Origin: Sulfurospirillum sp.
GTDB taxonomy: Bacteria; Campylobacterota; Campylobacteria; Campylobacterales; Sulfurospirillaceae
DNA length: 44,234 nucleotides
Reading direction: 5' to 3'
Assembly (NCBI GenBank): GCA_026988125.1
Contig: JALSLU010000120.1
Location: 1 to 44,234, forward strand
Shown piece by piece: positions 12,952 through 41,071 of the stretch (position 1 is the first letter of the stretch; each line of letters begins with the position of its first letter). Both the position numbers and the translations under genes were made by a program. Under the pieces are notes generated by a model, which worked only from the letters and a program-made list of their open reading frames with translations, searched no databases and was not told the DNA's origin.

Positions 12952-12981
12952 TGAAACTTTTTTGAAACTATAGTGTATAAT
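12952..12981 (+). promoter_or_regulatory. TAXI receptor promoter with two TGAAACT direct repeats
   Basis: TGAAACT occurs at 12952-12958 and 12963-12969, exactly 11 bp apart. The second copy starts 13 bases before the TATAAT at 12976-12981. This is the usual layout of an OmpR/PhoB-family activator site that replaces the -35. Two AAAGTTACA copies 21 bp apart (GTTACA at 12911 and 12932) lie further upstream and may be additional sites. Confidence 0.68.
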
Positions 12982-13006
12982 GGACTCAAATCTTAAAGGA
13001 GTCTGT

Positions 13007-14023: not shown

Positions 14024-14028
14024 AAATT

Positions 14029-16561: not shown

Positions 16562-17760
16562 TGTATGATTATCTAATAATTGGGGGAGGAATTATTGGAT
16601 TAAATATAGCTAAAGCTATAAAAGAGAGAGAGGTTGATGCAAAGATTGTTTTAATTGATAAGGAGTCAAAATTGGCTCTACATAGTAGTGGAAGAAATTC
16701 CGGAGTTTTACATGCTGGATTTTACTATAGTGCAGAGTCACTAAAAGCAAAATTTACAAGAGATGGAAACATAGCTTTAAAAAAGTTCTGCAAAGAGAGA
16801 AATCTAAAGATAAATGAGTGCGCAAAGGTGGTTGTTGCAACCAACAAGGAGGAGTTAGCTGGTTTAGAAGAACTAAAGAGAAGAGGTGATGCTAACGGAG
16901 TAGAGCTAATTTGGATGAGCGAGGATGAACTTGCTCAAAAATATCCCAATATAAAAACCTACAAAAAAGCACTATTTTCACCAAATACTGCTACAGTTGA
17001 TCCTAAAGAGGTTACATTAGAGTTTGCAAAAGCTGTTGAAGAGATGGGAGTTACTATACTAACAAACTGTACCTACAAAGCAAAAATATCTTATAATGAG
17101 GTATTAACCAATAATGGTTCTATTAAATTTAAAAAACTTATAAACTGCGCTGGACTCTATGCAGATAAAATTGCAAAAGATTTTAATTTTGCAAAAGAGT
17201 ATGTCATAATCCCTTTTAAGGGTATATACTTAAAAGACAAGAAAAACTTTGCCAATCTAAAAACCAATATCTACCCTGTACCAAATTTAGCAAATCCATT
17301 TTTGGGAGTTCACTACACACTAACTGTGAATAATGAAGCAAAAATTGGACCTACTGCAATCCCTGCATTTTGGAGAGAAAACTACAGTGGATTTGAAAAC
17401 TTCAGATCAGATGAACTCTTTCAAATACTCTACTATGAAGCAAAACTTTTTTTAACGGATGCATTTGGATTTAGAAAATTGGCATTTGATGAAGTAAAAA
17501 AGTACTGCAAATCATATCTCTTAAAATTAGCTAAGCAATTAACCCATCAAATGCCTCATAATGGATTTAGTGAGTGGAGTACTCCTGGCATAAGAGCACA
17601 ACTTCTAAATACAAAAACTTTGGAGTTGGTTCAAGACTTTGTTGTAGAAGCAGATGAAACCTCCATACATGTACTCAATGCTGTTAGTCCCGCATTTACA
17701 TCATCTATACCATTTGCAAATTGGGTAGTGGAAAACTATGTTCTTACCTCTAAAAAATAA
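16561..17760 (+). CDS. lhgO: L-2-hydroxyglutarate oxidase-type FAD dehydrogenase
   Basis: FAD-dependent oxidoreductase of the LhgO/L-2-hydroxyglutarate dehydrogenase family, 399 residues. It has the Rossmann dinucleotide motif YLIIGGGIIGLNIAKAI at the N-terminus, the family's HSSGRNSGVLHAGFYYSAES block (about 41-60), a second FAD contact LINCAGLYADKIA and a GPTAIPAF segment. The family oxidises L-2-hydroxyglutarate to 2-oxoglutarate and passes electrons to quinone. The gene's ATG overlaps the stop of the LUD gene. With the TAXI-TRAP system it suggests uptake and oxidation of a C5 2-hydroxy acid; the exact substrate is inferred, not shown. Confidence 0.85.
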   Translation: MYDYLIIGGGIIGLNIAKAIKEREVDAKIVLIDKESKLALHSSGRNSGVLHAGFYYSAESLKAKFTRDGNIALKKFCKERNLKINECAKVVVATNKEELAGLEELKRRGDANGVELIWMSEDELAQKYPNIKTYKKALFSPNTATVDPKEVTLEFAKAVEEMGVTILTNCTYKAKISYNEVLTNNGSIKFKKLINCAGLYADKIAKDFNFAKEYVIIPFKGIYLKDKKNFANLKTNIYPVPNLANPFLGVHYTLTVNNEAKIGPTAIPAFWRENYSGFENFRSDELFQILYYEAKLFLTDAFGFRKLAFDEVKKYCKSYLLKLAKQLTHQMPHNGFSEWSTPGIRAQLLNTKTLELVQDFVVEADETSIHVLNAVSPAFTSSIPFANWVVENYVLTSKK

Positions 17761-20218: not shown

Positions 20219-20494
20219 ATGGAGACATTTTTAAAAACTATTAGCTCAGTAAATGATGAAACTAGAGTAAAGATTTTAAACTACATAAATAAAAGAGACG
20301 AGGTTTGCGTTTGTGAACTTGAAGAGGCATTTGGCATGATTCAATCTCGCATCTCTAGGCATCTAAAAATCCTAAAAGAGGGTGGTTTTTTGAAAGTTAG
20401 AAGAGATGGCAGGTGGGCTTATTATAGTATCAGGAAGCCTTTAGATCAATTTAGAATGGCACTCTTAAAGGAGGTAAGCTACATTGAAAAATAA
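20219..20494 (+). CDS. arsR: ArsR-family metalloid-responsive repressor
   Basis: Small winged-helix repressor of 91 residues. The As(III)-sensing motif of classical ArsR is seen as VCVCELEEAF (about 29-38), followed by the recognition helix IQSRISRHLKILKEGGFLKV and wing RRDGRWAYYSI. Binding of arsenite or antimonite to the cysteines should release the operator palindrome at 20162. The ATG has AAAGGA upstream. The aquaporin start lies inside its last codons. Both neighbours and motif support arsenic rather than another metal. Confidence 0.93.
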   Translation: METFLKTISSVNDETRVKILNYINKRDEVCVCELEEAFGMIQSRISRHLKILKEGGFLKVRRDGRWAYYSIRKPLDQFRMALLKEVSYIEK

Positions 20495-21164
20495 TGACTT
20501 AGTTGGAGAGTTTTTAGGCACCTACATACTTGTTTTTGCAGGTTGCTTGGCAGTTGTTGTAGATACTATGCACTCAAATTTAGGAAGTGTTGGTATCTCT
20601 TTGGTATTTGGGTTTGTAATAGTGGCTTTGATTTATGCATTTGGGCATATAAGTGGAGCTCATTTTAATCCTGCGGTTACTATCTCCTTTGCTCTTATGG
20701 GTGAATTTGATAAAAAAAAGGTTCTTCTTTATGTGGCATCACAAGTAGCAGGAGCAATTTTGGCTAGTTTAACCATATGGCTTTTGGTAGTTGAGAGCAA
20801 CAAAGAGATGAGAGAGCTTTCATACCTAGGAGCAACACTTCCTAGCGGCTCAGTTATACAGTCTTTTGTTTTGGAATTTATTTTAACTTTTATACTGATG
20901 TTGGTAATCTATACCAGTGCAGTTCACGGAAGAGCCATAAAGAGCTTTGCCGGACTTGCTATAGGTTTTACTGTGGGGCTTGAGGCTATGATTGGAGGGG
21001 CTATTAGTGGGGCTAGTATGAATCCCGCTAGAAGCATAGGTCCGGCTATTGTCTCTTTAAATTTGGAGCATTTATGGATATACATTGTAGCTCCAATTTT
21101 TGGAGCACTCTTTGCTGGAGTTATTTTTGTTAAATTTATGAAATGTAAGGATGGAAGATGTTAA
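20484..21164 (+). CDS. Aquaporin/aquaglyceroporin of an ars operon (AqpS-like)
   Basis: Six-helix MIP channel of 226 residues with both pore signatures: HFNPAVT (first NPA) and SMNPARS (second NPA). The start is TTG at 20484 with the strong RBS AAAGGAGG nine bases upstream, overlapping the end of arsR; no in-frame ATG is near. Channels of this family inside ars operons (for example AqpS of Sinorhizobium) let arsenite made by ArsC leave the cell down its gradient. No ArsB or Acr3 pump is seen in this operon, which makes that role attractive here. Confidence 0.9.
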   Translation: MKNNDLVGEFLGTYILVFAGCLAVVVDTMHSNLGSVGISLVFGFVIVALIYAFGHISGAHFNPAVTISFALMGEFDKKKVLLYVASQVAGAILASLTIWLLVVESNKEMRELSYLGATLPSGSVIQSFVLEFILTFILMLVIYTSAVHGRAIKSFAGLAIGFTVGLEAMIGGAISGASMNPARSIGPAIVSLNLEHLWIYIVAPIFGALFAGVIFVKFMKCKDGRC

Positions 21165-21556
21165 AAAAAGTACTAGTTATGTGTACGGGAAATAGTTGTA
21201 GAAGCATCATAGCTGAAGCTCTTATAAATAGTTATCTTGATGGGGTTGAGGCTAAGAGTTGCGGTAGCAATCCAAGCGGTAGAGTTCATCCAAATGCAAA
21301 AAAAGTGTTAGAGATGAATGGAATATGGAGAGATGATTACTTCTCAAAAAGTTTAGATACTATTTTAGATGAGGAGTTTGATTTGGTTGTTACAGTTTGT
21401 GATAATGCAAAAGAGAGATGTCCTTTGTTTCCCAAAAAAACCAAAGTTATACATGTAGGCTTTAGTGACCCTGATGGAAAAGATTTTAGTGAGTTTGAAA
21501 AAACTTATGAAGAGATTAAAACTACTCTTCTTCCAAAGATAAAAGAGTCTTTGTAA
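21158..21556 (+). CDS. arsC: Arsenate reductase, thioredoxin-coupled LMW-phosphatase type
   Basis: Reduces arsenate to arsenite using a cysteine relay recharged by thioredoxin. The 132 residues begin with the phosphatase-like loop CTGNSCRS (C9 to C14) and carry the relay cysteines in VTVCDNAKERCP near 80-90. A DPDGKDFSEFE segment supplies the general-acid Asp region. The ATG overlaps the aquaporin end by seven bases and its stop overlaps the ATG of the permease by one base. A small CxxC thioredoxin-like protein encoded two genes later may be its electron donor (inference). Confidence 0.92.
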   Translation: MLKKVLVMCTGNSCRSIIAEALINSYLDGVEAKSCGSNPSGRVHPNAKKVLEMNGIWRDDYFSKSLDTILDEEFDLVVTVCDNAKERCPLFPKKTKVIHVGFSDPDGKDFSEFEKTYEEIKTTLLPKIKESL

Positions 21557-22500
21557 TGTGGAAAGAGTTTGTTGATTATCTAACTGTTGAATTGCTTGGC
21601 TTAAGCGGAAGACTAAATGATGCAATTAACTTTTTTATATACGATGTAATCAAAATCTGGTTTTTGCTTCTTAGTATAGTTTTTGTTGTTTCCTATCTTA
21701 GAACGCATTTTAACACCGAGTATGTCAGGGCTTATTTGCAAGGAAAATCAGAGTTTGCAGGTAATGTTTTAGCAGCTCTTTTTGGTATAATCACCCCTTT
21801 TTGTAGTTGTAGTGCCATACCTCTGTTTTTAGGTTTTATTCAGGCTAGAATCCCTCTTGGAGTAACCTTTTCATTTTTAATTAGCGCACCACTAAATAAT
21901 GAGATAGCAATAGCAATGCTTTTTGGAATATTTGGCTGGAAGATAACTGCAATCTATATTGGTTTTGGTCTGTTGGTGGCTATTTTTGGAGGTTACTTTA
22001 TAGGTAGAATGAAGCTAGAGAAGTATATACTGCTTGATGTAAAGCCTATGGAAGGCGAGCTTGATGAGGTTAAGATAAAGCTGAGTTTCAAAGAAAGAGT
22101 CAAAGAGGCTAAAGAGTACACACTTGATATTTTTAGAAAAATTTATCTCTATGTTATGATAGGAGTTGGAGTTGGAGCTTTTATCCACGGCTATATACCG
22201 GCTGATTTTATAGCCAAGTATGCTGGGGGAGATAATCCATTTGCAGTAATTATAGCAGTTTTGATGGGGATTCCGATGTACTCAAATGCTGCTGGGGTTA
22301 TGCCTTTGGTAGAGGTTTTAACAAGTAAAGGTATGCTTTTGGGAACCGCTCTTAGTTTTATGATGGCTGTTACTGCTCTTAGTCTGCCTGAAGCTATGAT
22401 TTTGAAAAAGATTCTACACATCAGGCTTATTGGGCTGTTTTTTGGTATAGTGGGGCTTGGGATTATCGGGGTTGGTTATCTGTTTAATGCTATTTTGTAA
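21556..22500 (+). CDS. ArsP/DUF318-type permease
   Basis: Integral membrane permease of 314 residues of the PF03773 (ArsP/DUF318) family, with about eight hydrophobic helices. The signature PFCSCSAIPLFLGF lies near residue 76-89 and a second half repeat GIPMYSNAAGVMPLVEVL follows, as in ArsP. C. jejuni ArsP exports trivalent organoarsenicals; whether this protein moves arsenite, organoarsenicals or something else is open. The two cysteines in PFCSC are the family's likely metalloid-binding residues. It overlaps arsC by one base and precedes the small thioredoxin. Confidence 0.83.
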   Translation: MWKEFVDYLTVELLGLSGRLNDAINFFIYDVIKIWFLLLSIVFVVSYLRTHFNTEYVRAYLQGKSEFAGNVLAALFGIITPFCSCSAIPLFLGFIQARIPLGVTFSFLISAPLNNEIAIAMLFGIFGWKITAIYIGFGLLVAIFGGYFIGRMKLEKYILLDVKPMEGELDEVKIKLSFKERVKEAKEYTLDIFRKIYLYVMIGVGVGAFIHGYIPADFIAKYAGGDNPFAVIIAVLMGIPMYSNAAGVMPLVEVLTSKGMLLGTALSFMMAVTALSLPEAMILKKILHIRLIGLFFGIVGLGIIGVGYLFNAIL

Positions 22501-28020: not shown

Positions 28021-28869
28021 ATGAAGATGAAAAAAATTTTACTATCAGTAGTAGCAACAGCAGGTTTAGTAAGTTCTTTGAGTGCTTCAGATATGGAAGC
28101 TGAGAAGATATTTGATGCAAAATGTGCAATGTGTCACTCTAAAACTATGCCAACAAATATGAACAATATAATTGCACCGGCACTATTTGGTGTTGCAAAG
28201 CATGTTAAGATGGCATACCCAAATAAAGAGGATGCAGTTAGGTTTATAGTTGATTATGTTCAGAACCCTAGCAAAGACAAAGCAATTTGCCAACCAAGCA
28301 AGATTGCAAAGTTCGGATTAATGCCATCTTTAAAAGGTGCTATTAGCGAAGATGAGCTTGAAGAGGTAGCTGAGTGGATATTTGATAACTTTCCGCCAAA
28401 AGGATTTGTTGGAAGAGGTATGCAACAACAAAGAGGTATGCAACAACAAAATGGAGCAACTCAAAGAGGTATGCAAAACAGACCTACTTTTCAAGATTTT
28501 GATCTAAATGGAGATGGCTCAATTAGCCAAGAAGAGTTTAATCAATTCAGAATGCAAAGAATGAAAAGCAGGATGCAAAATAGACCTCAAACCAATATGA
28601 ACAGAGGTATGGGGCAAAGAGGTATGCAAAACAGACCTACATTTGCAATGTTTGACCTAAATGGCGATGGAGTAGTAACAAAAGAGGAGCTCACTAAATT
28701 TAGAGCAGATAGAAGAGCTAAAATGGCAGCTCAAGGAATGCCTATGAGAAATGCTAAAAATGCTCCAGTATTTGAGAGTATGGATTTAAATGGTGATGGT
28801 ATGTTGACTCAAGAAGAGTTCAACCAATATAGATTACAAAGAATGCAAAATAGAATGAATAATAGATAA
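28021..28869 (+). CDS. Cytochrome c fused to three EF-hands
   Basis: Periplasmic protein of 282 residues. A signal peptide ends near SLSAS; a mono-heme cytochrome c domain follows with CAMCH (about 35-39) and a likely axial Met in FGLMPSL. The C-terminal half has three EF-hand loops, DLNGDGSISQEE, DLNGDGVVTKEE and DLNGDGMLTQEE, each with the 12-residue Ca-binding spacing. The links between are rich in Met, Gln and Arg (RGMQQQRGMQQQ). A repeated block (AGAGGTATGCAAAACAGACC at about 28465 and 28618) shows internal duplication. It is probably controlled by the two-component system upstream and co-transcribed with the next two genes. Confidence 0.88.
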   Translation: MKMKKILLSVVATAGLVSSLSASDMEAEKIFDAKCAMCHSKTMPTNMNNIIAPALFGVAKHVKMAYPNKEDAVRFIVDYVQNPSKDKAICQPSKIAKFGLMPSLKGAISEDELEEVAEWIFDNFPPKGFVGRGMQQQRGMQQQNGATQRGMQNRPTFQDFDLNGDGSISQEEFNQFRMQRMKSRMQNRPQTNMNRGMGQRGMQNRPTFAMFDLNGDGVVTKEELTKFRADRRAKMAAQGMPMRNAKNAPVFESMDLNGDGMLTQEEFNQYRLQRMQNRMNNR

Positions 28870-30084: not shown

Positions 30085-30936
30085 TTAGTGGGAAACAAAT
30101 GTAGGAATTTTTGTGTGAGTCAAGATATATTTAGAACTTCCTCCCAAAAATCTCTCTCTAATTCCTTTATGACTATAAGCACCTGCAACTATCAAATCAA
30201 ATCCACCATCATTTGCAGCTCTTAAAAGCGCTTCTCCTGGTATAAAAGTGGTTTTTATTATTTCAAATGTTGTTTCAATCTCATGCAGTTTTAAATAATC
30301 TCTTAATTTTCTTATTCTTGAGAGTGTTGGAGTTGTATACTCTTCAGAACTTACAATATGAACTGCACTTGCTCTTTGCATCATAGGTATAGCTTCACTT
30401 ATAGCTCTTGATGCTTCTGGGGAGTTATTCCATCCTATAATAATTCTCTTTGGATTAAAAGACTCTAATTTTCTAGGTATAATTGTTACTGGCTTACCAC
30501 TACAGTTTACTGCTGACTCAAAAGTTGCAGTAGGTTGACCTTTTGGAGGAGCGGCTACAACAACCATATCGCAAAATTTTGATCTCTCTTTGACAAGTTC
30601 GCTTCTGACACCAACTTTTTCTTTAATAGAAACACTACACTCACCCTCAATAGGAACATCACTTATCTTAACTCCTAATTTTTTAGCACACTTTTGAAGT
30701 AGCTGTATATCTTCTTGCTCATCCTCTTCTAAATTTTCCAAATATATTTTTTCGAGTCTTTTTAAAATATCTTCAGAAATTCCAATTCCTTGAGGAATCG
30801 TACTAACAACATTTGGTCTAGAAACTAAAATCTCCAAATGAGTATTGTAGTGCTTTGCTACTAAAAGTGCGCCATAGAGCCTCTCTTCTAGCTCATCTCC
30901 TCCACCAACTGGAAAAAACAGTTTTTTTGGAATCAT
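30085..30936 (-). CDS. Tandem universal stress protein
   Basis: Cytoplasmic protein of 283 residues with two UspA domains. The first is partly degenerate (KKLFFPVGGGDELEERLYGA). The second (about 160-283) starts KRIIIGWNNSPEASRAI and ends with the ATP-binding pattern G-x2-G-x9-G-S as GAYSHKGIRERFLGGSSKYIL, shortened spacing considered, so nucleotide binding is likely in the C-terminal half. The ATG has AAAGGA upstream. It follows pxpC by 23 bases on the same strand and is probably the last gene of the long minus-strand operon. Confidence 0.9.
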   Translation of the reverse strand: MIPKKLFFPVGGGDELEERLYGALLVAKHYNTHLEILVSRPNVVSTIPQGIGISEDILKRLEKIYLENLEEDEQEDIQLLQKCAKKLGVKISDVPIEGECSVSIKEKVGVRSELVKERSKFCDMVVVAAPPKGQPTATFESAVNCSGKPVTIIPRKLESFNPKRIIIGWNNSPEASRAISEAIPMMQRASAVHIVSSEEYTTPTLSRIRKLRDYLKLHEIETTFEIIKTTFIPGEALLRAANDGGFDLIVAGAYSHKGIRERFLGGSSKYILTHTKIPTFVSH

Positions 30937-30959
30937 ACCTCATCCTTTATAAATTTTTA

Positions 30960-31880
30960 CTATCTTATAACTTTTTGACTAAAAAAGTTATTAAACTTTT
31001 TACAACTCTTTTGGGCTTCAGCCAACTCTACAAGTCTAAATTTTACCTTATCTCCTTGTTTTGCCTGAGCAAGCTTAAAGCAATCTACCCTTATGACTGA
31101 ACCAATCTTTGCATAGCCCCCTATGGTTTGTCTCTCTTTTAGAAGTATTATTGGCTCCCCATGTGGTGGGATTTGAATAGCCCCATAAGCTATACCCTCG
31201 CTTATAATGCCACCACTCAAAGGAAAAACCTTCTCCCCTTTTAGTCTGTAACCCATTCTATCATTTTGATTTGTAACTTCATAGGTATTATTGAAAAACT
31301 TCTCTTTTTGAGAATCTTCAAACATATCCCACTGATAGGCTTTTACAACTCTAAGCTCTATTGGTGTTTCAAATTTTGGCTGAAATTCCTTTTTCAGATA
31401 GCAACTATAACTACTTCTTGAGGGCTTAAACTCTAAAAAATCTCCCCTTTTTATAGCCCTGCCACCTATGCCCTCTTTTAAGCTAACTGAGCTACTTCCA
31501 AACTCCTGTTCTACTTCAAATCCGCCCTTAACTCCAAGATAAACTCTAGCCCCACTAGTTACAAAGCCTACTTCTAGGACATCTCCATCTTTTGCATTGT
31601 AGGTTTTGTACATTTTTATTGGTTTGTTATTTAACTTTATCTCAACAGTAGCTCCACTTAAAGCAAAAACAACTTCCCCTTTAACTCTTAGCTTAAGTCC
31701 TCCAAAAGCTATCTCTAAAGCATTTGCACCAAAATCATTTTCCAAAAGCTTACAAAGATAACCATAGGATAGCTCATCCAAAACCCCTGCTTCACTTATG
31801 CCACTGTGAGCAAGCCCTACTCTTCCTAAGTCTTGAATGGTTGATAAAACTCCGCCGTTTAAAACTTCAAACCCACTCAT
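30960..31880 (-). CDS. pxpC: 5-oxoprolinase subunit PxpC
   Basis: Third subunit of the ATP-dependent 5-oxoprolinase PxpABC, which opens 5-oxoproline to glutamate. The 306 residues match the biotin-dependent carboxyltransferase-like/KipA family: VLNGGVLSTIQDLGRVGLAHSG (N-terminus, here split by family convention), MGYRLKG and the SEGIAYGAIQIPPHGEPIIL block near 225-244. The ATG overlaps the pxpB stop (ATGA), so the two subunits are translationally coupled. The usp gene follows. Confidence 0.93.
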   Translation of the reverse strand: MSGFEVLNGGVLSTIQDLGRVGLAHSGISEAGVLDELSYGYLCKLLENDFGANALEIAFGGLKLRVKGEVVFALSGATVEIKLNNKPIKMYKTYNAKDGDVLEVGFVTSGARVYLGVKGGFEVEQEFGSSSVSLKEGIGGRAIKRGDFLEFKPSRSSYSCYLKKEFQPKFETPIELRVVKAYQWDMFEDSQKEKFFNNTYEVTNQNDRMGYRLKGEKVFPLSGGIISEGIAYGAIQIPPHGEPIILLKERQTIGGYAKIGSVIRVDCFKLAQAKQGDKVKFRLVELAEAQKSCKKFNNFFSQKVIR

Positions 31881-32545
31881 ATCTTGCCACCAAGCTCTAT
31901 AAAGCTCTCTTTTGAGATAGGCTCAAACTTTACTCTATCGCCAACTTTGAAGTATGAAAAATCTTCATAATCCTTACTAAACATCTCTATGGGGGTTCTA
32001 CCTATGATGTTCCAACCCCCTGGACTCTCTTTTGGATAGATGGCAGTTTGAGCATCTGCAATCCCAACACTTCCTTTTGGAATCTTCGCCCTAGGATTTG
32101 CAAGCCTTGGTGTTGCAATTTTGCTATCTACCTCCCCCATATAAGCAAACCCGGGAGCAAAACCAATCGCATATACAAAGTACTCTTTTTTTACATGTAA
32201 ACTAACAATCTCCTCTACACTAAGCCCTTTAATTTCAGCCATACTCTTTAAATCAAGCCCAACTTCCAAACCATAATAAACTGGTAATTTAACCTCTCTT
32301 GATTCAATCTCGACTTCATTTACACATTCAAGTTCTTTTTGGATTAACTCTACCATATCATCATAACTATACTTTACAAAATCATACTTAACAAGAAGTG
32401 ATGTATATGATGGAATTAACTCTAAAAAAAAGCTCTTTGCCTTTAATGCAAAAAATGCTCCTCTCACCTCTTTTGCAATATCTTGAGAAATTTTATCACC
32501 AAAGTAAATTATGAGCGAATCAACAGAAGCTACTTCAAACCTCAT
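31877..32545 (-). CDS. pxpB: 5-oxoprolinase subunit PxpB
   Basis: Second subunit of 5-oxoprolinase, KipI family, 222 residues. Family blocks seen: PSYTSLLVKYD near 45-55, the VKLPVYYG strand, GFAPGFAYMGEVD (about 128-140), TPRLANPRAKIPKGSVGIA and ESPGGWNIIGRTP. It overlaps pxpA by 11 bases upstream and pxpC by four bases downstream. PxpB and PxpC form a complex and are thought to act with PxpA to phosphorylate and hydrolyse the lactam. Confidence 0.93.
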   Translation of the reverse strand: MRFEVASVDSLIIYFGDKISQDIAKEVRGAFFALKAKSFFLELIPSYTSLLVKYDFVKYSYDDMVELIQKELECVNEVEIESREVKLPVYYGLEVGLDLKSMAEIKGLSVEEIVSLHVKKEYFVYAIGFAPGFAYMGEVDSKIATPRLANPRAKIPKGSVGIADAQTAIYPKESPGGWNIIGRTPIEMFSKDYEDFSYFKVGDRVKFEPISKESFIELGGKI

Positions 32546-33272
32546 CCAAATAGCTCCTTATTACTCTTACGAACTCAACAGCCTCTTTTGTATCTCCATG
32601 AACGCACAGGCTATCGGCTCTTAAGCTTAACTCTTTTTTATCTATGCTTAAAAGTTTACCCTCTCTTTTTAGCATATCTATCCTCTTTTTAACCTCTTGC
32701 ACACTATGTAAAACCGCCCCTTCTTGAGTTCTTGGTACCAAATAGCCCTCATTTGTATATGCCCTATCTGCAAAAACTTCAAAGATGAGCTTTAAACCAA
32801 ACTCTTTTGCCATCTCTTCATAGTAGCTATTTTTACATGTAGATAAAATCATAAGTTTTAAACTAGAGTCTATCTTGCTTATAGCACTCATTATGGCTCT
32901 TAAAATCTCATCATCTCTCATCATATCGTTATAGAGTGCACCATGAGGTTTTACATACTCTAAGGTAACCCCATTGGCTCTACAAACTCCCCTAAGTGCT
33001 CCTGTTTGGTAGATGCTAAATGCCTCTATCTCATCAAAACTGCACTTTAAGCTTCTTCTTCCAAACCCAACCAAATCAGGATACCCAACATGAGCCCCAA
33101 TTTGAACCCCATGTTTTTTTAGCTCTTTCACACTCTTTTGCATTACCAAAGGATCACCCGCATGAAAGCCGCAAGCCACATTTGCCATATCTATAAGAGG
33201 AATTACAAGCTCATCCTCCCCCATCTTCCAAGAACCAAAACTCTCCCCCAAATCACAATTTAATCTTAACAC
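32535..33272 (-). CDS. pxpA: 5-oxoprolinase subunit PxpA (LamB/YcsF)
   Basis: First subunit of 5-oxoprolinase, 245 residues, LamB/YcsF family. It starts LNCDLGESFGSWKMG and has ANVACGFHAGDP (about 30-41), VQIGAHVGYPDLVGFGRR, YVKPHGALYNDM and the C-terminal SLCVHGDT with the likely metal and substrate residues. The start is GTG at 33272 with GGAGG about ten bases upstream and overlaps the DUF4392 gene by 20 bases. It is one of five enzyme genes in a tight cluster. Confidence 0.94.
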   Translation of the reverse strand: MLRLNCDLGESFGSWKMGEDELVIPLIDMANVACGFHAGDPLVMQKSVKELKKHGVQIGAHVGYPDLVGFGRRSLKCSFDEIEAFSIYQTGALRGVCRANGVTLEYVKPHGALYNDMMRDDEILRAIMSAISKIDSSLKLMILSTCKNSYYEEMAKEFGLKLIFEVFADRAYTNEGYLVPRTQEGAVLHSVQEVKKRIDMLKREGKLLSIDKKELSLRADSLCVHGDTKEAVEFVRVIRSYLDEV

Positions 33273-34092
33273 CTCTTAGCTCCTCCAAAATCTCTCTCTC
33301 AATCTCCCACTCTTTACCATCTACACTCTTTTCGCACCTCTTTGAAATGCCATCGACTACGCCCTTAGAGATCAAAAACTCCAAGTACTCATCAACCTCT
33401 TCAAATGATGGAAGCAGCTTTTTATCTAAGTAGGCTATAAATCCATAAGCTCCCCAATTAGACACACTAGAGAGCATCAAATAATCACACTCTACAATGC
33501 AAGGCTCCAAGCCAAGCTCTCTTTTTATATCCTCTTTGTAATTACCCATACCAATCTCATTGCCACCATCTCCAATAGCAAAACGATTTTCCCCCAAGGA
33601 AAAAAGCTCGTCTAGTGGTGCGGTATATTTTGAGATATCCTCTTTTCTTGAGTTTTCATACCTTCCAAATCTATTTTTACCACATCTCTCTATGCTTATG
33701 TGAGCTACTGGTGCGTGCTCTTTAAGCAGTTTTGTAAAATCTACATTTTTATCAATCGGCACTATAAGAGTTTCAATCTCTTTAAAAAGATTTTCACAAA
33801 ATTTATCTGTTACTATTGCAGGCTCATACCCCAAAGCCTTTAAGGCTCTAGCTAAAAAGTAAGTCCCAATAGGACCATCACTCTCAGGAGCCCCCGCCAC
33901 CCAAAAACCTGTATATAAAAAAACCTTTCCAACTTTTAACTTCCTAAAAGCTTTTATGGCCTCTTTTATATGCTCTTTGGAATGAAGTTTTGCCAAAACA
34001 TCCATGCCTCTTGTAGAGTGTTTTAAAATTATGCTATCAACTGACACACTATTCACTATCTTTATACTCACTATCTTTTTTATCTCCCACAA
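33253..34092 (-). CDS. DUF4392 protein, D-glutamate cyclase C-terminal half
   Basis: Protein of 279 residues matching DUF4392, the C-terminal half of mammalian D-glutamate cyclase (DGLUCY), which turns D-glutamate into 5-oxo-D-proline. Family-like blocks are DSIILKHSTRGMDVLAKL, LYTGFWVAGAPESDGPIGT, HISIERCGKNRFGRYEN and FAIGDGGNEIGMGNYKE. The likely start is TTG at 34092 with AGGA seven bases upstream; GTG codons at 34071, 34056 or 34047 are alternatives. It overlaps the DUF1445 gene by 44 bases and pxpA by 20 bases. The product of this step would be the PxpABC substrate, apart from stereochemistry. Confidence 0.87.
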   Translation of the reverse strand: MWEIKKIVSIKIVNSVSVDSIILKHSTRGMDVLAKLHSKEHIKEAIKAFRKLKVGKVFLYTGFWVAGAPESDGPIGTYFLARALKALGYEPAIVTDKFCENLFKEIETLIVPIDKNVDFTKLLKEHAPVAHISIERCGKNRFGRYENSRKEDISKYTAPLDELFSLGENRFAIGDGGNEIGMGNYKEDIKRELGLEPCIVECDYLMLSSVSNWGAYGFIAYLDKKLLPSFEEVDEYLEFLISKGVVDGISKRCEKSVDGKEWEIEREILEELRGVKIKL

Positions 34093-34822
34093 ACATATGT
34101 CCTGGTTTATGGGTTATGGCAAATGGTATCTTTATGTCTCTTAAGACATTTTGAGGAGTCACGCCGCAGGGCCAAAAGAGTGGTATTTCATCATCTCTTA
34201 TCTCAACACTATCACCATAATCAGGAGAGTTTATATCTTTTATCCCTATCATCTCAGGATAGCCTACATGAATAGGACTGCCATGAGTTTTTGGAAAGCA
34301 AGAAGTCACAACACAAGCAGTTGCTACTAAATCTTTTCTAACAGGTCTCATAGAGACAACCATCTTACCCTTAAATGGACCAAATGGCTCTAAATCTATG
34401 TTTGTATTGTACATGGAAACATTTCTTTTTTGCTCTACATGCCTAAGCCCAATCCCAGCATCAACCAAAGCCTTTTCAAAAGTAAAGCTACACCCTATGA
34501 GAAAAAATACCAAATCCTCACTATAAAACTCCTCAATGCTCTTCACACTCCTAAGTACTTCACCATCTTTGATTACGTTATAAGCCGGAATTTCATTCAA
34601 TAAGTTTGCACCACTTGCTAACTCTTTTGTAATATAACCATCTTTTACAACCTCCAAAACAGGAATAGCCTTAGAGTTTCTCTTTGCAAACTCCTCAAAA
34701 GGCTTAGCATACTCTTTTGGCAAAGCTACCATATTTGCCTGAACAAATCCATCACAATACCCAGCAGTAGGAGCACAAAACTCTCCACTAGCAATCTTTC
34801 TTCTAAGCTCTTTTGGAGTCAT
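34049..34822 (-). CDS. DUF1445 putative hydro-lyase, D-glutamate cyclase N-terminal half
   Basis: Protein of 257 residues of the DUF1445 (D-glutamate cyclase-like) family. Family blocks seen: GYCDGFVQANMVALPKEYA, LIGCSFTFEKALVDAGI, RHVEQKRNVSMYNTNI, MRPVRKDL, SPIHVGYPEMIGI, FWPCGVTPQN and THKPGHMFVGD. In mammalian DGLUCY this domain and DUF4392 are fused; here they are two overlapping genes. The last 14 residues (DKKDSEYKDSE) come from a 15-bp tandem duplication (34049-34078). The ATG has AAGGA upstream and lies 20 bases after dctM. Confidence 0.87.
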   Translation of the reverse strand: MTPKELRRKIASGEFCAPTAGYCDGFVQANMVALPKEYAKPFEEFAKRNSKAIPVLEVVKDGYITKELASGANLLNEIPAYNVIKDGEVLRSVKSIEEFYSEDLVFFLIGCSFTFEKALVDAGIGLRHVEQKRNVSMYNTNIDLEPFGPFKGKMVVSMRPVRKDLVATACVVTSCFPKTHGSPIHVGYPEMIGIKDINSPDYGDSVEIRDDEIPLFWPCGVTPQNVLRDIKIPFAITHKPGHMFVGDKKDSEYKDSE

Positions 34823-34842
34823 AGGGATCCTTTTTTTAGGTG

Positions 34843-36177
34843 TTATTTTACCATTTTTTCAGGCAGATATGTAGCAATCTCAGGAAAAGCTGTTACTACA
34901 ATTACTATCAAAATCATAATTATAAAAAATGGAAAAGTAGCCTTAAGTATATAGCTAATCTTTTCACCCGAAATACTTTGAATTACAAACAAAGAAAACC
35001 CTACAGGAGGAGTTATCTGAGAAAGCTCCACCATAAATACTAAAAATATACCAAACCAAAGTGGATCATACCCTGCCATAGTAACAATTGGAAGAACAAT
35101 TGGAAGAGTCATTACAACTATGGAGATCCCATCTAGTATCATTCCTAAAATCACATACATTATGCCTATGACTAAAATAAGAACATATGGTGATAGTCCT
35201 AACTCTCCTATATACTCGCTAATTGCTCTAGCTATCCCTAAAAAGCCAACAACTTGTGATAAAAACCCAGCTCCAGCAATTATAAAACTAATCATAACAG
35301 TTGTTTTTACCGCATTTAAAAGAGCCTCTTTAAATACTTCGTAAGTAAAACTTTTAAAATAAATTGCTAAAATAACTGCACCTAAAACACCGAGTGCTGC
35401 AGCCTCTGTTGGTGTAGCAAAACCACCATATATACTTCCTAAAACCAAAGCAATAAGTAAAAATATAGGAACCAACTCTTTTATAGAATCTATTTTTTCT
35501 CTAAAAGTAAATCTCTCCCCTTTTGAAGGAACAACACTCTTGTCTAAAGATGCTACTATCATGATATAGAGAGAATAGGAGCTAGCTAGCAAAAGACCAG
35601 GAAAGATTCCAGCAATAAAAAGCTTCCCTATTGAGACATCACTTAAAACTCCGTAAATAATCATAATCAAACTAGGAGGGATTAAAAATCCCAAAGTTCC
35701 ACTTCCAGCAAGACTACCAAGTGCCAATTTTTTACTATAACCTCTCTTTTTTAACTCACCTAATGTTATTTTTCCAACTGTTGCAGTAGTTGCAGCTGAT
35801 GAGCCAGAAACTGCTGCAAATAGTGAACAAGCTGCAACATTTACATGTAAGAGTTTTCCAGGAATACTACCAAGCCACGGCATTAAGCCATTTAATAGTC
35901 TAGTTGAAATAGAGGATCGGTACAAGATTTCTCCCATAAGTATAAACATAGGCAATGCAGCTAAAGACCAAGAGTTCAAAGAGTCGTACAAACTTCCAGC
36001 AAGCAAATCTCCACTCTTTTGTAGTATAGAAATAGCAGGAGGAAGATTGTGCTCATATATAAGCATACCAACGATCCCAGTTAGCATCAACGCTGAGCCT
36101 ATCCAAACTGAACTCAATAAAAAGAAAAACATTATGCCAATCAGTACAACAGATAAAACCAATGGATCAGATATCAT
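34843..36177 (-). CDS. dctM: TRAP transporter large permease DctM
   Basis: Inner-membrane large subunit of a sodium-coupled TRAP transporter, 444 residues, about twelve helices. Family motifs: AALPMFILMGEILYRS near 73-88, CSLFAAVSGSSAATTATVG, GYSKKLALGSLAGSGTLGFL and IPPSLIMIIYG. The ATG overlaps the dctQ stop by 11 bases. With dctQ and dctP it forms a complete DctPQM set. The enzymes directly downstream suggest D-glutamate, 5-oxoproline or a related acid as cargo; the substrate is inferred from context only. Confidence 0.93.
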   Translation of the reverse strand: MISDPLVLSVVLIGIMFFFLLSSVWIGSALMLTGIVGMLIYEHNLPPAISILQKSGDLLAGSLYDSLNSWSLAALPMFILMGEILYRSSISTRLLNGLMPWLGSIPGKLLHVNVAACSLFAAVSGSSAATTATVGKITLGELKKRGYSKKLALGSLAGSGTLGFLIPPSLIMIIYGVLSDVSIGKLFIAGIFPGLLLASSYSLYIMIVASLDKSVVPSKGERFTFREKIDSIKELVPIFLLIALVLGSIYGGFATPTEAAALGVLGAVILAIYFKSFTYEVFKEALLNAVKTTVMISFIIAGAGFLSQVVGFLGIARAISEYIGELGLSPYVLILVIGIMYVILGMILDGISIVVMTLPIVLPIVTMAGYDPLWFGIFLVFMVELSQITPPVGFSLFVIQSISGEKISYILKATFPFFIIMILIVIVVTAFPEIATYLPEKMVK

Positions 36178-36631
36178 TTTTCAGCCTTTTATAAACAAAT
36201 GCAACACAAACCAAGACAAACATAGCCAATCCTATACTCATAGGGATTTGTGTTAACCAAATAGGAGTTTCCGATACTCCTTCACTCACCATCTCCATCT
36301 CTTTTGAGTCTAACATAAACTTATATGAATAAAATAGAGCAAAAATAAGTACCAAAGTATTTAGAACTCCAGCAAAAATATCTACCCACCTTTTTGAGTT
36401 TTCACTAAGTCTTGATGTTATTATGTTTATTCTTATGTGTCCGTTGTCTGCAAAGGTGTAAGCCAGTCCGAAAAAGACCGCACTCAAATAGAAGTATCCG
36501 CTATACTCATCAGCAAGCATCGTAGAGTAATTAAATAAGCCTCTACCAAAAATTTCAACCAAAATAAGAACCACTAAAGCAATTATAAACAAAGAGGAGA
36601 TATAAGCTCCAATTTTTGAAAGTTTAAACAT
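36167..36631 (-). CDS. dctQ: TRAP transporter small permease DctQ
   Basis: Small membrane subunit of 154 residues with four helices. Typical features are the EIFGRGLFNYS motif after helix 1, ADEYSGYFYLSAVFFGLAYTF, and the HIRINIIT motif. It overlaps dctM by 11 bases. A perfect 11-bp hairpin in the 57-base gap after dctP probably raises receptor relative to permease levels by protecting or processing the upstream mRNA. Confidence 0.92.
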   Translation of the reverse strand: MFKLSKIGAYISSLFIIALVVLILVEIFGRGLFNYSTMLADEYSGYFYLSAVFFGLAYTFADNGHIRINIITSRLSENSKRWVDIFAGVLNTLVLIFALFYSYKFMLDSKEMEMVSEGVSETPIWLTQIPMSIGLAMFVLVCVAFVYKRLKNDI

Positions 36632-36649
36632 GTTTTATCTCCCAATTTG

Positions 36650-36677
36650 GGTCTTAGTAGCTATCTCTACTAAGACC
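36650..36677 (-). terminator. Intercistronic hairpin between dctP and dctQ
   Basis: A perfect 11-bp stem (GGTCTTAGTAG / CTACTAAGACC, six-base loop) directly after the dctP stop, without a T-tract. Such hairpins after TRAP or ABC binding-protein genes commonly stabilise the upstream message or partly stop transcription. Confidence 0.65.
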
Positions 36678-36688
36678 AGTTTTGAAAT

Positions 36689-37648
36689 CTATTTAGAGTG
36701 GTACTCTTTAAAAATTTTCTTTATATCACTACTAGCATCCTCAAGATATTTATCTAACATCTTTTTACCAATTTCTTTTAATTCAGCTCTTAATTGAGGA
36801 GTTGGTTCACTTACTTTCATCCCATTGTCGGCTAACATTTTAAGAGCCACTTTATCCTCTTTTTTACTAGCCTCCCACTGCATAGCTTCTATCTCTTTAG
36901 CCGCTTTTAACATAGCATTTTGTTGCTCTTTTGTTAAAGAGTTCCAATAATCAAGATTTATAGTTACAGCTTGAAGAGGGTATGCATATCCTATCTTTGT
37001 AAAGTTGGTTAAAACTTCCCAAAGTTTTCCATCCTTTCCACTAGCACTACTTGTTACAACACCATTTACCAAACCAGTTTGCAAAGCCGAGTAAACTTCC
37101 CCCCAAGGAAGTGCAACAGCATTACCACCAGCCATCTTTATAAAGTTTGCAGAGTTTTTGTCATAAGTTCTAACTTTAACACCCTTTAAATCTGCAATAG
37201 AATTTATAGCTTTTTTAGTATAAATTCCACTTGGTGGCCAACTAACAGCATAAAGCATCTTTTGGTTCCACTTCTTAGCTACTTTATCATAAGCAGGTTT
37301 TGAAATTTTATACAACCTATAAGCATCATCATAGCTTGAAGCTACAAAAGGAAGAGCAGAAATTCCAAATACCTTCCCGCCACCACTTGTAAAAGGTATA
37401 AACATATCTGTCATTGGTGCGACACCATCTTTAACTGCTTTTAGAGGATTTCCTTTTACTAAAGAGCCTCCTGCATGAACAGTTATCTTTACGCTTCCGT
37501 TGGTATATTTTTCAACCAATTTTGCAAATTTTTGAGCACCTATTGTGTGAAAATTATTTGCAGGATACTTAGCATTTAGATCCAATTTTACATTTCCAGC
37601 AACAAGTGCAACTCCAACTCCAGCCAACAAAACTATCTTCTTTAGCAT
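36689..37648 (-). CDS. dctP: TRAP transporter solute-binding protein DctP
   Basis: Periplasmic receptor of 319 residues. A short signal peptide ends near LVAGN. Family features: NFHTIGAQKFAKLVEKYTNG, DMFIPF, and the conserved substrate-carboxylate Arg in LKGVKVRTYDKN (about 150-161), followed by GGNAVALPWGEVYSALQTGLVNG. That Arg implies a carboxylate ligand. The ATG has AAAGGAG upstream. It follows the two-component regulator gene by 63 bases, and the gap holds a promoter with two CCTAC repeats. Confidence 0.93.
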   Translation of the reverse strand: MLKKIVLLAGVGVALVAGNVKLDLNAKYPANNFHTIGAQKFAKLVEKYTNGSVKITVHAGGSLVKGNPLKAVKDGVAPMTDMFIPFTSGGGKVFGISALPFVASSYDDAYRLYKISKPAYDKVAKKWNQKMLYAVSWPPSGIYTKKAINSIADLKGVKVRTYDKNSANFIKMAGGNAVALPWGEVYSALQTGLVNGVVTSSASGKDGKLWEVLTNFTKIGYAYPLQAVTINLDYWNSLTKEQQNAMLKAAKEIEAMQWEASKKEDKVALKMLADNGMKVSEPTPQLRAELKEIGKKMLDKYLEDASSDIKKIFKEYHSK

Positions 37649-37677
37649 AAAAACTCCTTTATTGTGGTTTGCATAAT

Positions 37678-37707
37678 ATTACAATATCAAAGTAGGAAAT
37701 TGGTAGG
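37678..37707 (-). promoter_or_regulatory. dctP promoter with two CCTAC direct repeats
   Basis: On the minus strand CCTAC occurs at 37707-37703 and 37696-37692, exactly 11 bp apart. Thirteen bases after the start of the second copy is a possible -10 TGTAAT (37683-37678). The geometry matches the TGAAACT site of the TAXI system. The likely binder is the response regulator encoded immediately upstream. Confidence 0.58.
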
Positions 37708-37711
37708 GAAT

Positions 37712-38368
37712 CTACGAATCCAACAACTTATAGCCAACTTGAGGGACATTCTCTATTAAATCAAATGGTAATTTTTTTCTTAAATCTCTTATAAAACTTT
37801 TAAGTGCACTCTGGCTCATACTTTTTTGCTCCCACAGCATATCTTCTATAATTGAGTATCTAACTACAGAACCTCTTGCCAAAAGAGTTAAAAACTTTGC
37901 TTCTCTTAAACTCAAAGAGATTTTTTCATAACCCACATTCAACTCCAAATTATCTATATCTAAAAAAACATTTTCTTTTATTTGTATAACTCCACTAAAT
38001 CTCCCTTTTAAAGCGTTTTGAATACCCTCTTCTAAAGCTTTAGTTGAAATTGGTTTTAAAATAAAGTGCTGAATTTTGAGATTTAAGAGCTCCATTAAAT
38101 ATTGCTCTTTATTGTGAGCTGTTAAAAATATAATAGGAGTAAACAGATCATCCTTTCTTATCTCTTTAACCATAGATATACCGTCCATATTTGGCATCTT
38201 AATATCGCAGATTATTAAATTTGGACTTTTTTTATAATAAACTTCCAAACCAATTTCTCCATCTTTGGCCTCATAAACATCCTTAAAATAGTACTTTAGA
38301 GTATTGACAATCCTTTTTCTAACTCCACATTCATCCTCAACACAAAGTACAGTCAAATTTTTATACAA
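37712..38368 (-). CDS. Response regulator with winged-helix output
   Basis: Regulator of 218 residues. Receiver domain about 5-120: acidic pair E11-D12, phosphoacceptor D55 (IICDIKMPNMDG), Thr in FLTAH and Lys in LKPIS. Winged-helix domain about 130-218: LSLREAKFLTLLARG, SALKSFIRDLRKKLP and VPQVGYKLL. It overlaps the kinase gene by 16 bases. It resembles the regulator at 12211 in size and layout; both stand beside TRAP transporters. Its likely target is the dctP promoter, 63 bases from its stop. Confidence 0.92.
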   Translation of the reverse strand: MYKNLTVLCVEDECGVRKRIVNTLKYYFKDVYEAKDGEIGLEVYYKKSPNLIICDIKMPNMDGISMVKEIRKDDLFTPIIFLTAHNKEQYLMELLNLKIQHFILKPISTKALEEGIQNALKGRFSGVIQIKENVFLDIDNLELNVGYEKISLSLREAKFLTLLARGSVVRYSIIEDMLWEQKSMSQSALKSFIRDLRKKLPFDLIENVPQVGYKLLDS

Positions 38369-39942
38369 AATTCCGCTCCATCTTCTGTATTTTTAACACT
38401 AAGTTTTCCTCCCATGTTCTTTTCTACTATCATTTTGGACATATAAAGACCAAGCCCTCCCCCGCTTGAATTTTTTGTACTAAAATATGGCTCAAAAATT
38501 CTTTGCAAAATCTTCCCATCTATACCTTTTGCATTATCACTTACTTTAACTACACCGAGCCCTTCCTCTTTATAAATTTCTATTTTTATGTATGGATTAG
38601 CTACATTGTTTACCAAAAGAGCATCTTTTGCATTTAAAATAAGGTTAAGTACAACATGTGCAAACTCGGCTCTATATCCAAGTATTTGAGAGTCTTCCAA
38701 TATATTTAAAATTAAAGCAATATCTTTAGATTGCAAACTAGCACTTGCTATGATAATTGCCTCTTTGCACGCATCTTTTATTGAAAATTTCTCCTTTTTT
38801 TTAGAAGGTTTAAAAAAATCTCTAAAATCATCTATGGTTTTTGACATATATGATGTTAATCTAAAGCCATCTTGAGAGTTTTTTCTTATGAATTCACTAT
38901 CTGCTTTGTTAAATTTACTAGCAGTTTCCATCTCCATAAAAATTCCCGAAATTTCACAAAGAGGTTGCCTCCACTGGTGAGCAATCATACTAAGCATCTC
39001 TCCCATTTGTGCCAATCTTGACTGATGAAGAAGTGCTCTATCTTTTTGTTTAGCCTCTTCTAATGCAAGTTCAACTTTTTTTTCTAAAGTTTTATTAAAC
39101 TCTTTTAAATCTCGCTCTTTTTTGTAAACTTCCTCTTTATATTTATTAAAAACCTCAACAATTCTTTGAGAAATTAAATAACCCATAAAACCTATTACTA
39201 TCATTAGTCCAAGCGAAACCAAAAGAACTATTTGTGTATACTCTTCTATTTTTTGCTCAAGTAATAACTTTTTTTGCTCTATTGATGATTCAATATCATC
39301 TACATACAAACCCGTTCCTACTACCCAACCCCAAGGTTTATACAGTTTTAAAAAACCAATCTTCTTCCTAGGAGATTCAAACTCTGGCTTTGCCCAATAG
39401 TACTCAACAAAACCTCCACTCTCATTTTCAAGAGCTGTATTTATAAATTTTTGAAAAATTTTTTCTCCTGAAGCATCTGTATTGTCTGTATCATCTCTTC
39501 CTATATCGTAAGGTCTAAAAGGATGTGCCACTAAGTGGTGTGAAGTATCGTGTATCCATACATAGCCATTTTTGCCATACCTAACGCTCTCAACCCAACC
39601 AATAACATCTCTTTTTAATCTTTCATATGACTCTTTTTCATACAACTCTACCTCTTTCTCACTAACTTCTTTACCCTTTTTGATCATATTTCTAAAATAA
39701 TTATGAATTCTCTTTTCTTCTAGCTTTCTGTGGTAATCAATATAATCTAATACTCTTTGATTCTCCTTGATAAGAATTATTTTTTGTTTTTTGAGGTATT
39801 CATCCTCCAATTCTTTGCTCTCTTTTCTAAAATTTGCATACTGAGTATTTGTAATGATATATATAATCAACACAGCAAACAAAGCAATCAAAAGTATAGG
39901 TGTTGCGACAATTAATTTGGGTAAATTTTTTTCCTTAAACAC
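38353..39942 (-). CDS. Cache-domain sensor histidine kinase
   Basis: Inner-membrane kinase of 529 residues. Transmembrane helices at about 10-30 and 240-260 frame a periplasmic sCache_2-type domain (about 40-235) with GKNGYVWIHDTSHHLVAHPF and PWGWVVGTGLYVDDI, as in sensors of small organic acids. A coiled coil follows, then HisKA with H322 in MIAHQWRQPL and HATPase with NLILNAKDAL and GGGLGLYMSK. The HisKA block is close to that of the kinase at 7596, so the two kinases are probably related. The gene is four bases after a cytochrome c gene and overlaps the regulator by 16 bases. Confidence 0.92.
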   Translation of the reverse strand: MFKEKNLPKLIVATPILLIALFAVLIIYIITNTQYANFRKESKELEDEYLKKQKIILIKENQRVLDYIDYHRKLEEKRIHNYFRNMIKKGKEVSEKEVELYEKESYERLKRDVIGWVESVRYGKNGYVWIHDTSHHLVAHPFRPYDIGRDDTDNTDASGEKIFQKFINTALENESGGFVEYYWAKPEFESPRKKIGFLKLYKPWGWVVGTGLYVDDIESSIEQKKLLLEQKIEEYTQIVLLVSLGLMIVIGFMGYLISQRIVEVFNKYKEEVYKKERDLKEFNKTLEKKVELALEEAKQKDRALLHQSRLAQMGEMLSMIAHQWRQPLCEISGIFMEMETASKFNKADSEFIRKNSQDGFRLTSYMSKTIDDFRDFFKPSKKKEKFSIKDACKEAIIIASASLQSKDIALILNILEDSQILGYRAEFAHVVLNLILNAKDALLVNNVANPYIKIEIYKEEGLGVVKVSDNAKGIDGKILQRIFEPYFSTKNSSGGGLGLYMSKMIVEKNMGGKLSVKNTEDGAEFCIKI

Positions 39943-39946
39943 AAAC

Positions 39947-41071
39947 TTATTCTGCCTTAGCCTTCAAACTTTTTAAAAATGCAATTATATCATTTATGCT
40001 TTGTTCATCCATCCAGTCATATGAAGGCATTGTGGAATGCATATTTTCATTTTCATCCTTATTAAACCATGGAAAATCTTTATTTAGTTTAACATCATAG
40101 CTTGGAGTAATGTATGCATCTGGGTTTAAAACTGACTCTTTTAGGTACTCTTTATTGAGATACCCTCCAGCATTTGAAAGATTTGGTGCCATATAACTTG
40201 GTGCAATCTTTACATCTTTGTATCTATGACAAGCTGAGCAATTTTCCTCTACCAATCTCTTACCATTTTGAATGCTCCCTCCATTTTTCTCAAAACTCCC
40301 AATGTTCACATCTTCTAACTCTTGATCTGAAAAAACAAATAAAATCCAAGGAGTAAAAAATTCAAATGCTTCATTCAAACCATAACCACCAAATGTAGAA
40401 AAACTAATAGGGATACTTTTTTGATTTGAAAGTGATGAGATTTTAATTGTTACAAGTCCATACCAATATCCATTTTTATATAACATTTCTATCTTGCTAT
40501 CATTGGGCATATACTCTTTTCTTTGACTAAAAATATACTTCTTTTCAATTTTGTAGTAACCTTTAAATATTTTTTTCCTTTGAAACTCTTTTAAATTATC
40601 CTTAAAAAAAATTGACTTACTTTTATAATCTATATCTCTTTTTGGTTCAAGTTCAAAAATATATCCTACAATTTTTTTATTATATATCAAAATCTTTCTC
40701 TCTTGATTGCCCTCAATAGTTCTAGGAAGATTTTTTAAATTTTGGTAATTTCTTGCAAATCTAACTGAAAATTTATTTATAAATCTATGAGTCTTATTAA
40801 AGTTTTTAAAATCCTCTTCATTGTCTTTCCATTTTAGTAAAATAGATATTTTTTTTCCATCACTAATTGCCTTGATTTTCAATTTTTTCGCATAAAATTC
40901 CTCTTTTGCATTACTAAAATCAAAACTATACATCTCTAAATCACTAAAATTTGAACTAAGCCACGCCTTAGAAGTGATCCCAATATTTGAAATATCCCCT
41001 GGAACCTTCACTATACTTACTCTTGCAAAAACTAAACTTGCCACTATTAATAATAAAACTAATTTTTTCAA
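39947..41071 (-). CDS. Ethylbenzene-dehydrogenase-like/cytochrome c protein
   Basis: Exported protein of 374 residues. A signal peptide ends near LVFARV. The N-terminal part (about 18-265) resembles the ethylbenzene dehydrogenase heme-b/gamma-subunit domain (ISILLKWKDNEED, WYGLVTIKISSL, NEAFEFFTPWILFVFS). The C-terminal part has one c-type heme site, CSACH, and likely axial Met in STMPSYDWM. The start is TTG at 41071 with GAGG five bases upstream; no ATG fits. Its stop is four bases before the kinase start, so it seems to lead the operon; a redox or signalling link to the kinase is possible but unproven. The family call of the N-terminal part is moderate. Confidence 0.75.
   Translation of the reverse strand: MKKLVLLLIVASLVFARVSIVKVPGDISNIGITSKAWLSSNFSDLEMYSFDFSNAKEEFYAKKLKIKAISDGKKISILLKWKDNEEDFKNFNKTHRFINKFSVRFARNYQNLKNLPRTIEGNQERKILIYNKKIVGYIFELEPKRDIDYKSKSIFFKDNLKEFQRKKIFKGYYKIEKKYIFSQRKEYMPNDSKIEMLYKNGYWYGLVTIKISSLSNQKSIPISFSTFGGYGLNEAFEFFTPWILFVFSDQELEDVNIGSFEKNGGSIQNGKRLVEENCSACHRYKDVKIAPSYMAPNLSNAGGYLNKEYLKESVLNPDAYITPSYDVKLNKDFPWFNKDENENMHSTMPSYDWMDEQSINDIIAFLKSLKAKAE

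Follow-up and report, generated by a model that had tools for sequence, protein, structure and literature searches.

A putative 5-oxoproline scavenging operon with a split D-glutamate cyclase homologue in a Sulfurospirillum genome

Gene content and layout of the locus

The window, the whole stretch of DNA that was analysed, is 44,234 nucleotides long and represents one contig (C120) of a 1.87 Mb assembly that is 98.6% complete. Judged by the named relatives of its DUF4392 protein, it belongs to the Campylobacterota, close to Sulfurospirillum. Positions 30085–41071 are occupied by 12 genes, all on the minus strand, and the open reading frame list together with Pfam and, for most genes, NCBIfam confirms the families to which the initial annotation had assigned them. 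Read along the minus strand, the genes are as follows.

39947..41071, minus strand: c-type cytochrome with a weak ethylbenzene-dehydrogenase-like haem domain (Pfam Cytochrom_C)
38353..39942, minus strand: sensor histidine kinase with a dCache_2/sCache_2 periplasmic domain and HATPase_c (Pfam)
37712..38368, minus strand: response regulator with receiver and winged-helix output domains (Pfam Response_reg and Trans_reg_C)
36689..37648, minus strand: DctP solute receptor, pyroglutamate-binding subfamily (Pfam, PDB matches, invariant residues)
36167..36631, minus strand: DctQ, small TRAP permease (Pfam)
34843..36177, minus strand: DctM, large TRAP permease (Pfam; TIGR00786 above cut-off)
34049..34822, minus strand: D-glutamate cyclase homologue, one domain (PF07286 D-Glu_cyclase, formerly DUF1445; YcsI/UPF0317) (Pfam, NCBIfam, structures)
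33253..34092, minus strand: D-glutamate cyclase homologue, C-terminal domain (PF14336 GLUCM-like_C, formerly DUF4392) (Pfam, TON_0340 homology)
32535..33272, minus strand: PxpA, 5-oxoprolinase subunit A (Pfam LamB_YcsF; NF003816, 344.5 bits, cut-off 213)
31877..32545, minus strand: PxpB, 5-oxoprolinase subunit B (Pfam CT_C_D; TIGR00370, 180 bits, cut-off 145.6)
30960..31880, minus strand: PxpC, 5-oxoprolinase subunit C (Pfam CT_A_B; TIGR00724 above cut-off)
30085..30936, minus strand: universal stress protein (Usp), at the end of the row (Pfam Usp)

The Pfam matches of the row members lie above their cut-offs, that of the regulator output domain barely so (30.8 versus 26.2 bits). The ethylbenzene-dehydrogenase-like match of the cytochrome falls under its cut-off, and PxpC misses the stricter equivalog model NF045499, with 200 of 500 bits. 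The three adjoining genes of the PxpA, PxpB and PxpC families make up a PxpABC set, and the receptor, small permease and large permease genes together make up a TRAP transporter.

Intergenic spacing within the row runs from −44 to +63 nt, which would be consistent with a single transcript. The overlaps of −44 and −20 may reflect the choice of start codon; the DUF4392 open reading frame, which opens with TTG at 34092, has GTG codons further downstream, at 34071 and at 34056, and translation may begin at one of these instead. A promoter and terminator scan returned no excess of promoter-like or terminator-like sites over shuffled sequence, and the Rfam and tRNA scans gave no matches.

The two halves of a D-glutamate cyclase homologue

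The reading of a split D-glutamate cyclase in the initial annotation is borne out by Pfam to the extent that homologues of both domains, PF07286 and PF14336, are present as two adjacent genes. Almost the entire DUF1445 protein is covered by its matches to structures 3db9 and 2pif. The DUF4392 protein is related to TON_0340, a lone DUF4392 protein reported to be a Mn-dependent phosphatase, whose metal-binding acidic residues are Glu59, Asp61, Glu115, Asp157, Glu161 and Asp246; all six ligands are kept in the alignment, as E70, D72, E135, D175, E179 and D258. Homology and metal site together make it a candidate both for a TON_0340-type Mn-dependent phosphatase and for the metal-site component of a D-glutamate cyclase.

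The mouse protein, in which DUF1445 and DUF4392 are fused, converts D-glutamate to 5-oxo-D-proline and was assayed in the cyclising direction. Within the literature found, cyclase biochemistry is confined to this fused protein; we found no dedicated study of a bacterial D-glutamate cyclase with 5-oxoproline and no tested cyclase function for any bacterial DUF1445 or DUF4392 protein, despite their 5-oxoprolinase neighbourhood in several phyla. Without ATP, the hydrolysis of 5-oxoproline is energetically unfavourable at neutral pH; this speaks against a hydrolase role for the pair unless the product is drawn off.

Conservation of the gene row in relatives

The order kinase–regulator–DctPQM–DUF1445–DUF4392–PxpA is the same in four of five relatives from the window's genus (G091, G232, G301 and G313), and this conservation takes the gene row beyond chance. 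PxpBC–Usp continues after PxpA in the three same-genus relatives whose contig goes on, the contig of G313 ending within PxpA. The row is rearranged in G104 (locus L113): Usp–PxpC–PxpB–DUF4392 is kept, whereas PxpA and DUF1445 are encoded on the other strand, where the contig stops.

Two other genera of the window's family have DctPQM–PxpABC as the unit, preceded by the kinase–regulator pair at L157, L159, L164 and L165; DUF1445 and DUF4392 are located elsewhere in these genera, as a divergent pair. Among the family genera compared, the cyclase pair is thus inside the operon only in the window's genus. Since kinase, regulator, DctPQM and PxpABC occur together without the pair, the core of the system consists in detecting, importing and opening a single substrate, and the cyclase genes are therefore a supplement that the window's genus acquired or retained.

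The response regulator beside the kinase is conserved both in the same-genus loci and in the other genera. The cytochrome, 4 nt from the kinase gene, probably lies outside the pathway and is not a conserved member, since a major-facilitator protein takes its place in G091 and, at L157 in another genus, the gene next to the kinase is a different one and divergent. Usp is present in four same-genus loci, and no match to it was found beside PxpC in the loci of other genera.

Trees of DUF4392, DUF1445 and PxpA each place the Campylobacterota copies in one strongly supported group, apart from the Firmicutes copies. Branching among the genera is weakly resolved, and the window's genus never forms a well-supported clade. 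The cyclase pair has probably been relocated within the family, although the trees do not prove it.

Transporter cargo and the sensor

The best PDB matches of DctP are 2pfz (171 bits), 6wgm (161 bits) and 2pfy (142 bits), followed by 4p47 (101 bits). Pyroglutamate is reported to be bound in two DctP structures from Bordetella pertussis; we take these to be 2pfz and 2pfy, and 6wgm is presumably a pyroglutamate receptor as well. R160, Y162, S200 and G204 are invariant in the three receptors, the window protein and the aligned family orthologues, and 4p47 differs at the positions of Y162, S200 and G204. DctP is nearest to the solved pyroglutamate receptors and possesses the TRAP arginine, which places it in their subfamily; judged by position, Arg160 is this arginine, which binds the carboxylate (PMC4646407). 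The initial annotation had D-glutamate as the imported substrate. That assignment is not upheld, since the nearest solved DctP relatives bind pyroglutamate, and the cargo is likely to be 5-oxoproline rather than D-glutamate.

The Cache part of the kinase is nearest to the chemoreceptor structures 4k08 and 5g4y, which we take to bind small carboxylates. The kinase has the same position in genera whose operon lacks the cyclase pair, and from gene position we infer that its signal may be pyroglutamate or a relative.

In genus g3 (L125:11104-13820 and L003:2634-5351) the cyclase pair, there divergent, has a different TRAP transporter beside it, with a receptor that resembles 4xeq. As a candidate D-glutamate carrier it was set aside as uninformative, its DctP being nearest to 4xeq (278 bits) and not to the pyroglutamate receptors.

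Co-occurrence and the link to D-glutamate

Co-occurrence was examined in 399 genomes of the order. PxpA is present in 90 of these, PF07286 in 47 (46 of which have PxpA) and PF14336 in 41 (40 of which have PF07286), such that the genomes with DUF4392 are nested within those with DUF1445, and these within those with PxpA, with the exception of two fragmented assemblies. Outside the window's family all nine PF07286 genomes have PxpA (hypergeometric p 1.4e-8, uncorrected for kinship), and the two genes lie within about 5 kb of each other in five of the nine. MurI coexists with the cyclase pair in two order genomes outside the family (G071 and G097), and with DUF1445 but no DUF4392 in seven others.

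Gene neighbourhoods were compared for the best 80 DUF4392 matches listed to the window protein, a sample biased towards its kin. DUF1445 is present in 43 of these 80 loci, Pxp genes in 34, and a class IV, D-amino-acid-transaminase-like gene in 28; among the same best 80, the transaminase-like gene accompanies 27 of the 34 loci with DUF4392 and Pxp genes, all of them in other phyla, and six Treponema-type loci add an alanine racemase. For two transaminase-like genes tested from the Firmicutes/Treponema clusters, the best NCBIfam match is D-amino-acid transaminase, under the TIGR01121 cut-off. Similar neighbours are seen in the window's family, where a D-amino-acid transaminase gene is convergent with DUF4392 at a distance of 1 nt in G343, and a transaminase gene is convergent with DUF4392 and overlaps it in G277. 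The transaminase neighbour is new support for the link to D-glutamate.

The window's genome (G000) has no MurI over the cut-off. It encodes one D-amino-acid transaminase that passes the TIGR01121 cut-off, as well as an Asp/Glu racemase resembling YgeA. Leaving aside genera g4 and g5, the family is represented by 40 genomes; none of these has MurI over the cut-off, and most have a D-amino-acid transaminase. MurI occurs in only four genomes of the family (two genera), all without PxpA, DUF1445 and DUF4392, and the cyclase genomes and MurI genomes of the family do not overlap (Fisher p 4e-5, within one clade whose genomes are not independent). Replacement of MurI was rejected as a general rule, as 17 of 30 DUF4392 genomes from other groups have MurI and so do cyclase-bearing genomes elsewhere in the order; absence of MurI alongside the pair is a clue, not a rule.

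Proposed pathway and alternatives

The initial annotation is supported in so far as it described an operon for taking up and using 5-oxoproline that has a transporter and a two-component system of its own. We consider it probable that the row serves to scavenge 5-oxoproline (pyroglutamate), with a side branch that involves D-glutamate. The Cache kinase and its regulator would respond to a small carboxylate and probably switch the operon on; DctP would catch pyroglutamate and DctQM carry it inward, and PxpABC would use ATP to turn 5-oxo-L-proline into L-glutamate. The DUF1445 and DUF4392 proteins together would interconvert 5-oxo-D-proline and D-glutamate, so that 5-oxo-D-proline, or D-glutamate from the cell wall, could join the same pool, and a D-amino-acid transaminase, whose gene lies at another place in the genome, would exchange D-glutamate with 2-oxoglutarate.

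Chirality favours the branched arrangement. PxpABC is known for 5-oxo-L-proline (PMC13274462), and closing and reopening the ring keeps the configuration, so D-glutamate returns as D-glutamate with ATP spent. A linear path from D-glutamate through 5-oxoproline to glutamate, as in the initial annotation, is a futile ATP-burning loop unless an enzyme, for example PxpABC, inverts the centre. A division of labour is better supported, with PxpABC predicted to act on the L form and the pair on the D form, in either direction.

The alternative that survives best, although we think it unlikely, is that the pair cyclises D-glutamate and so serves as an overflow valve: in cells that have no MurI, excess D-glutamate made by transamination would become 5-oxo-D-proline, to be lost or to be opened by a PxpABC of relaxed stereochemistry. 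The direction agrees with that of the mouse fused enzyme, and the 40 MurI-less family genomes, with a D-amino-acid transaminase in most, offer a suitable setting, but a reversible transaminase could drain D-glutamate itself, an importer of 5-oxoproline beside a disposal route makes little sense, and the pair coexists with MurI in G071 and G097. The opposite direction underlies a more specific proposal, which we regard as rather doubtful: in the MurI-less clade of Sulfurospirillum relatives, imported pyroglutamate would feed both glutamate enantiomers, with PxpABC supplying L-glutamate and the pair, as a 5-oxo-D-proline hydrolase, supplying D-glutamate for the cell wall or, with the D-amino-acid transaminase, for catabolism.

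It is improbable that the DUF1445 and DUF4392 proteins are a hydro-lyase and a phosphatase for some other substrate, with PxpABC as a neighbour through shared nitrogen or carbon scavenging. The phosphatase activity of TON_0340, with all six of its metal ligands kept here, and the seven order genomes that have DUF1445 without DUF4392 would fit such an arrangement; the almost complete nesting of the three genome sets (DUF4392 inside DUF1445, DUF1445 inside PxpA), the recurrent transaminase and alanine racemase neighbours and the cyclase activity of the fused mouse protein argue against it. Import of D-glutamate, its cyclisation and ring opening by PxpABC to usable glutamate is the least credible path, for although all the gene families it names are present and adjacent, DctP groups with pyroglutamate receptors, the retained chirality gives D-glutamate back for one ATP, and other genera have the transporter and PxpABC without the pair.

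Comparison with known systems

The scavenging operon with a D-glutamate branch that we favour shares parts with several known systems. Bacillus subtilis joins ycsI (DUF1445) with pxpABC in an operon that also has ycsG and kipR (PMC10448178), and so likewise combines PxpABC 5-oxoprolinase with a DUF1445 protein, YcsI; it differs in that the B. subtilis control genome has no DUF4392, and in having the Mn importer YcsG and KipR where the window has a TRAP transporter and a two-component system. Corynebacterium glutamicum uses pxpTABC to grow on 5-oxo-L-proline as carbon and nitrogen source (PMC13274462), a similar combination of 5-oxo-L-proline import with PxpABC, although the transporter PxpT is of a non-TRAP type and the C. 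glutamicum control genome has no PF07286 or PF14336 match. The Bordetella pyroglutamate TRAP receptors DctP6 and DctP7 (PMC13274462) belong to the same DctP subfamily and have the same proposed cargo, but are encoded near a 5-oxoprolinase of another, eukaryotic type, and utilisation has not been demonstrated in Bordetella.

Split D-glutamate cyclase homologues have been listed for gut bacteria (PMC11580864). Homologues of both domains are shared with the mammalian D-glutamate cyclase, which is one fused mitochondrial protein, whereas here there are two adjacent genes (PMC5339696). The Firmicutes/Treponema clusters also have both cyclase halves with PxpABC; they differ in having Liv-type ABC or AGCS-type transporter genes nearby and no TRAP transporter, and in having the D-amino-acid-transaminase-like gene inside the cluster.

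The initial annotation had called the whole not a known system. This holds for the full set with TRAP transporter and sensor, which among the genomes compared is seen only in the window's genus, and not for partial combinations, which are known already. Neither the full set with TRAP transporter and two-component system nor the recurrent transaminase neighbour was found described in the literature searched; the individual pairings are known or noted before, and the complete assembly and its tie to D-glutamate are little described. With the operon, the transaminase neighbour and the absence of MurI, the chirality and direction of the enzymes become assayable questions, which matter for understanding how D-glutamate is kept in balance for the cell walls of these bacteria.

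Other features of the window

At 12980-17760 the window encodes a TAXI-TRAP receptor and fused permease, followed by a LUD-domain protein and an L-2-hydroxyglutarate oxidase. The best PDB match of the receptor is 9ibp (385 bits), and since a TAXI system of Proteus mirabilis is reported for 2-oxoglutarate and 2-hydroxyglutarate, this transporter may import 2-hydroxyglutarate. Aquaporin-like, ArsC-like and permease genes, recognised by eye, stand in a row at 20484-22500 and are perhaps concerned with arsenic handling. A cytochrome-like protein encoded at 28021-28869 has three EF-hand calcium motifs by Pfam, an unusual combination.
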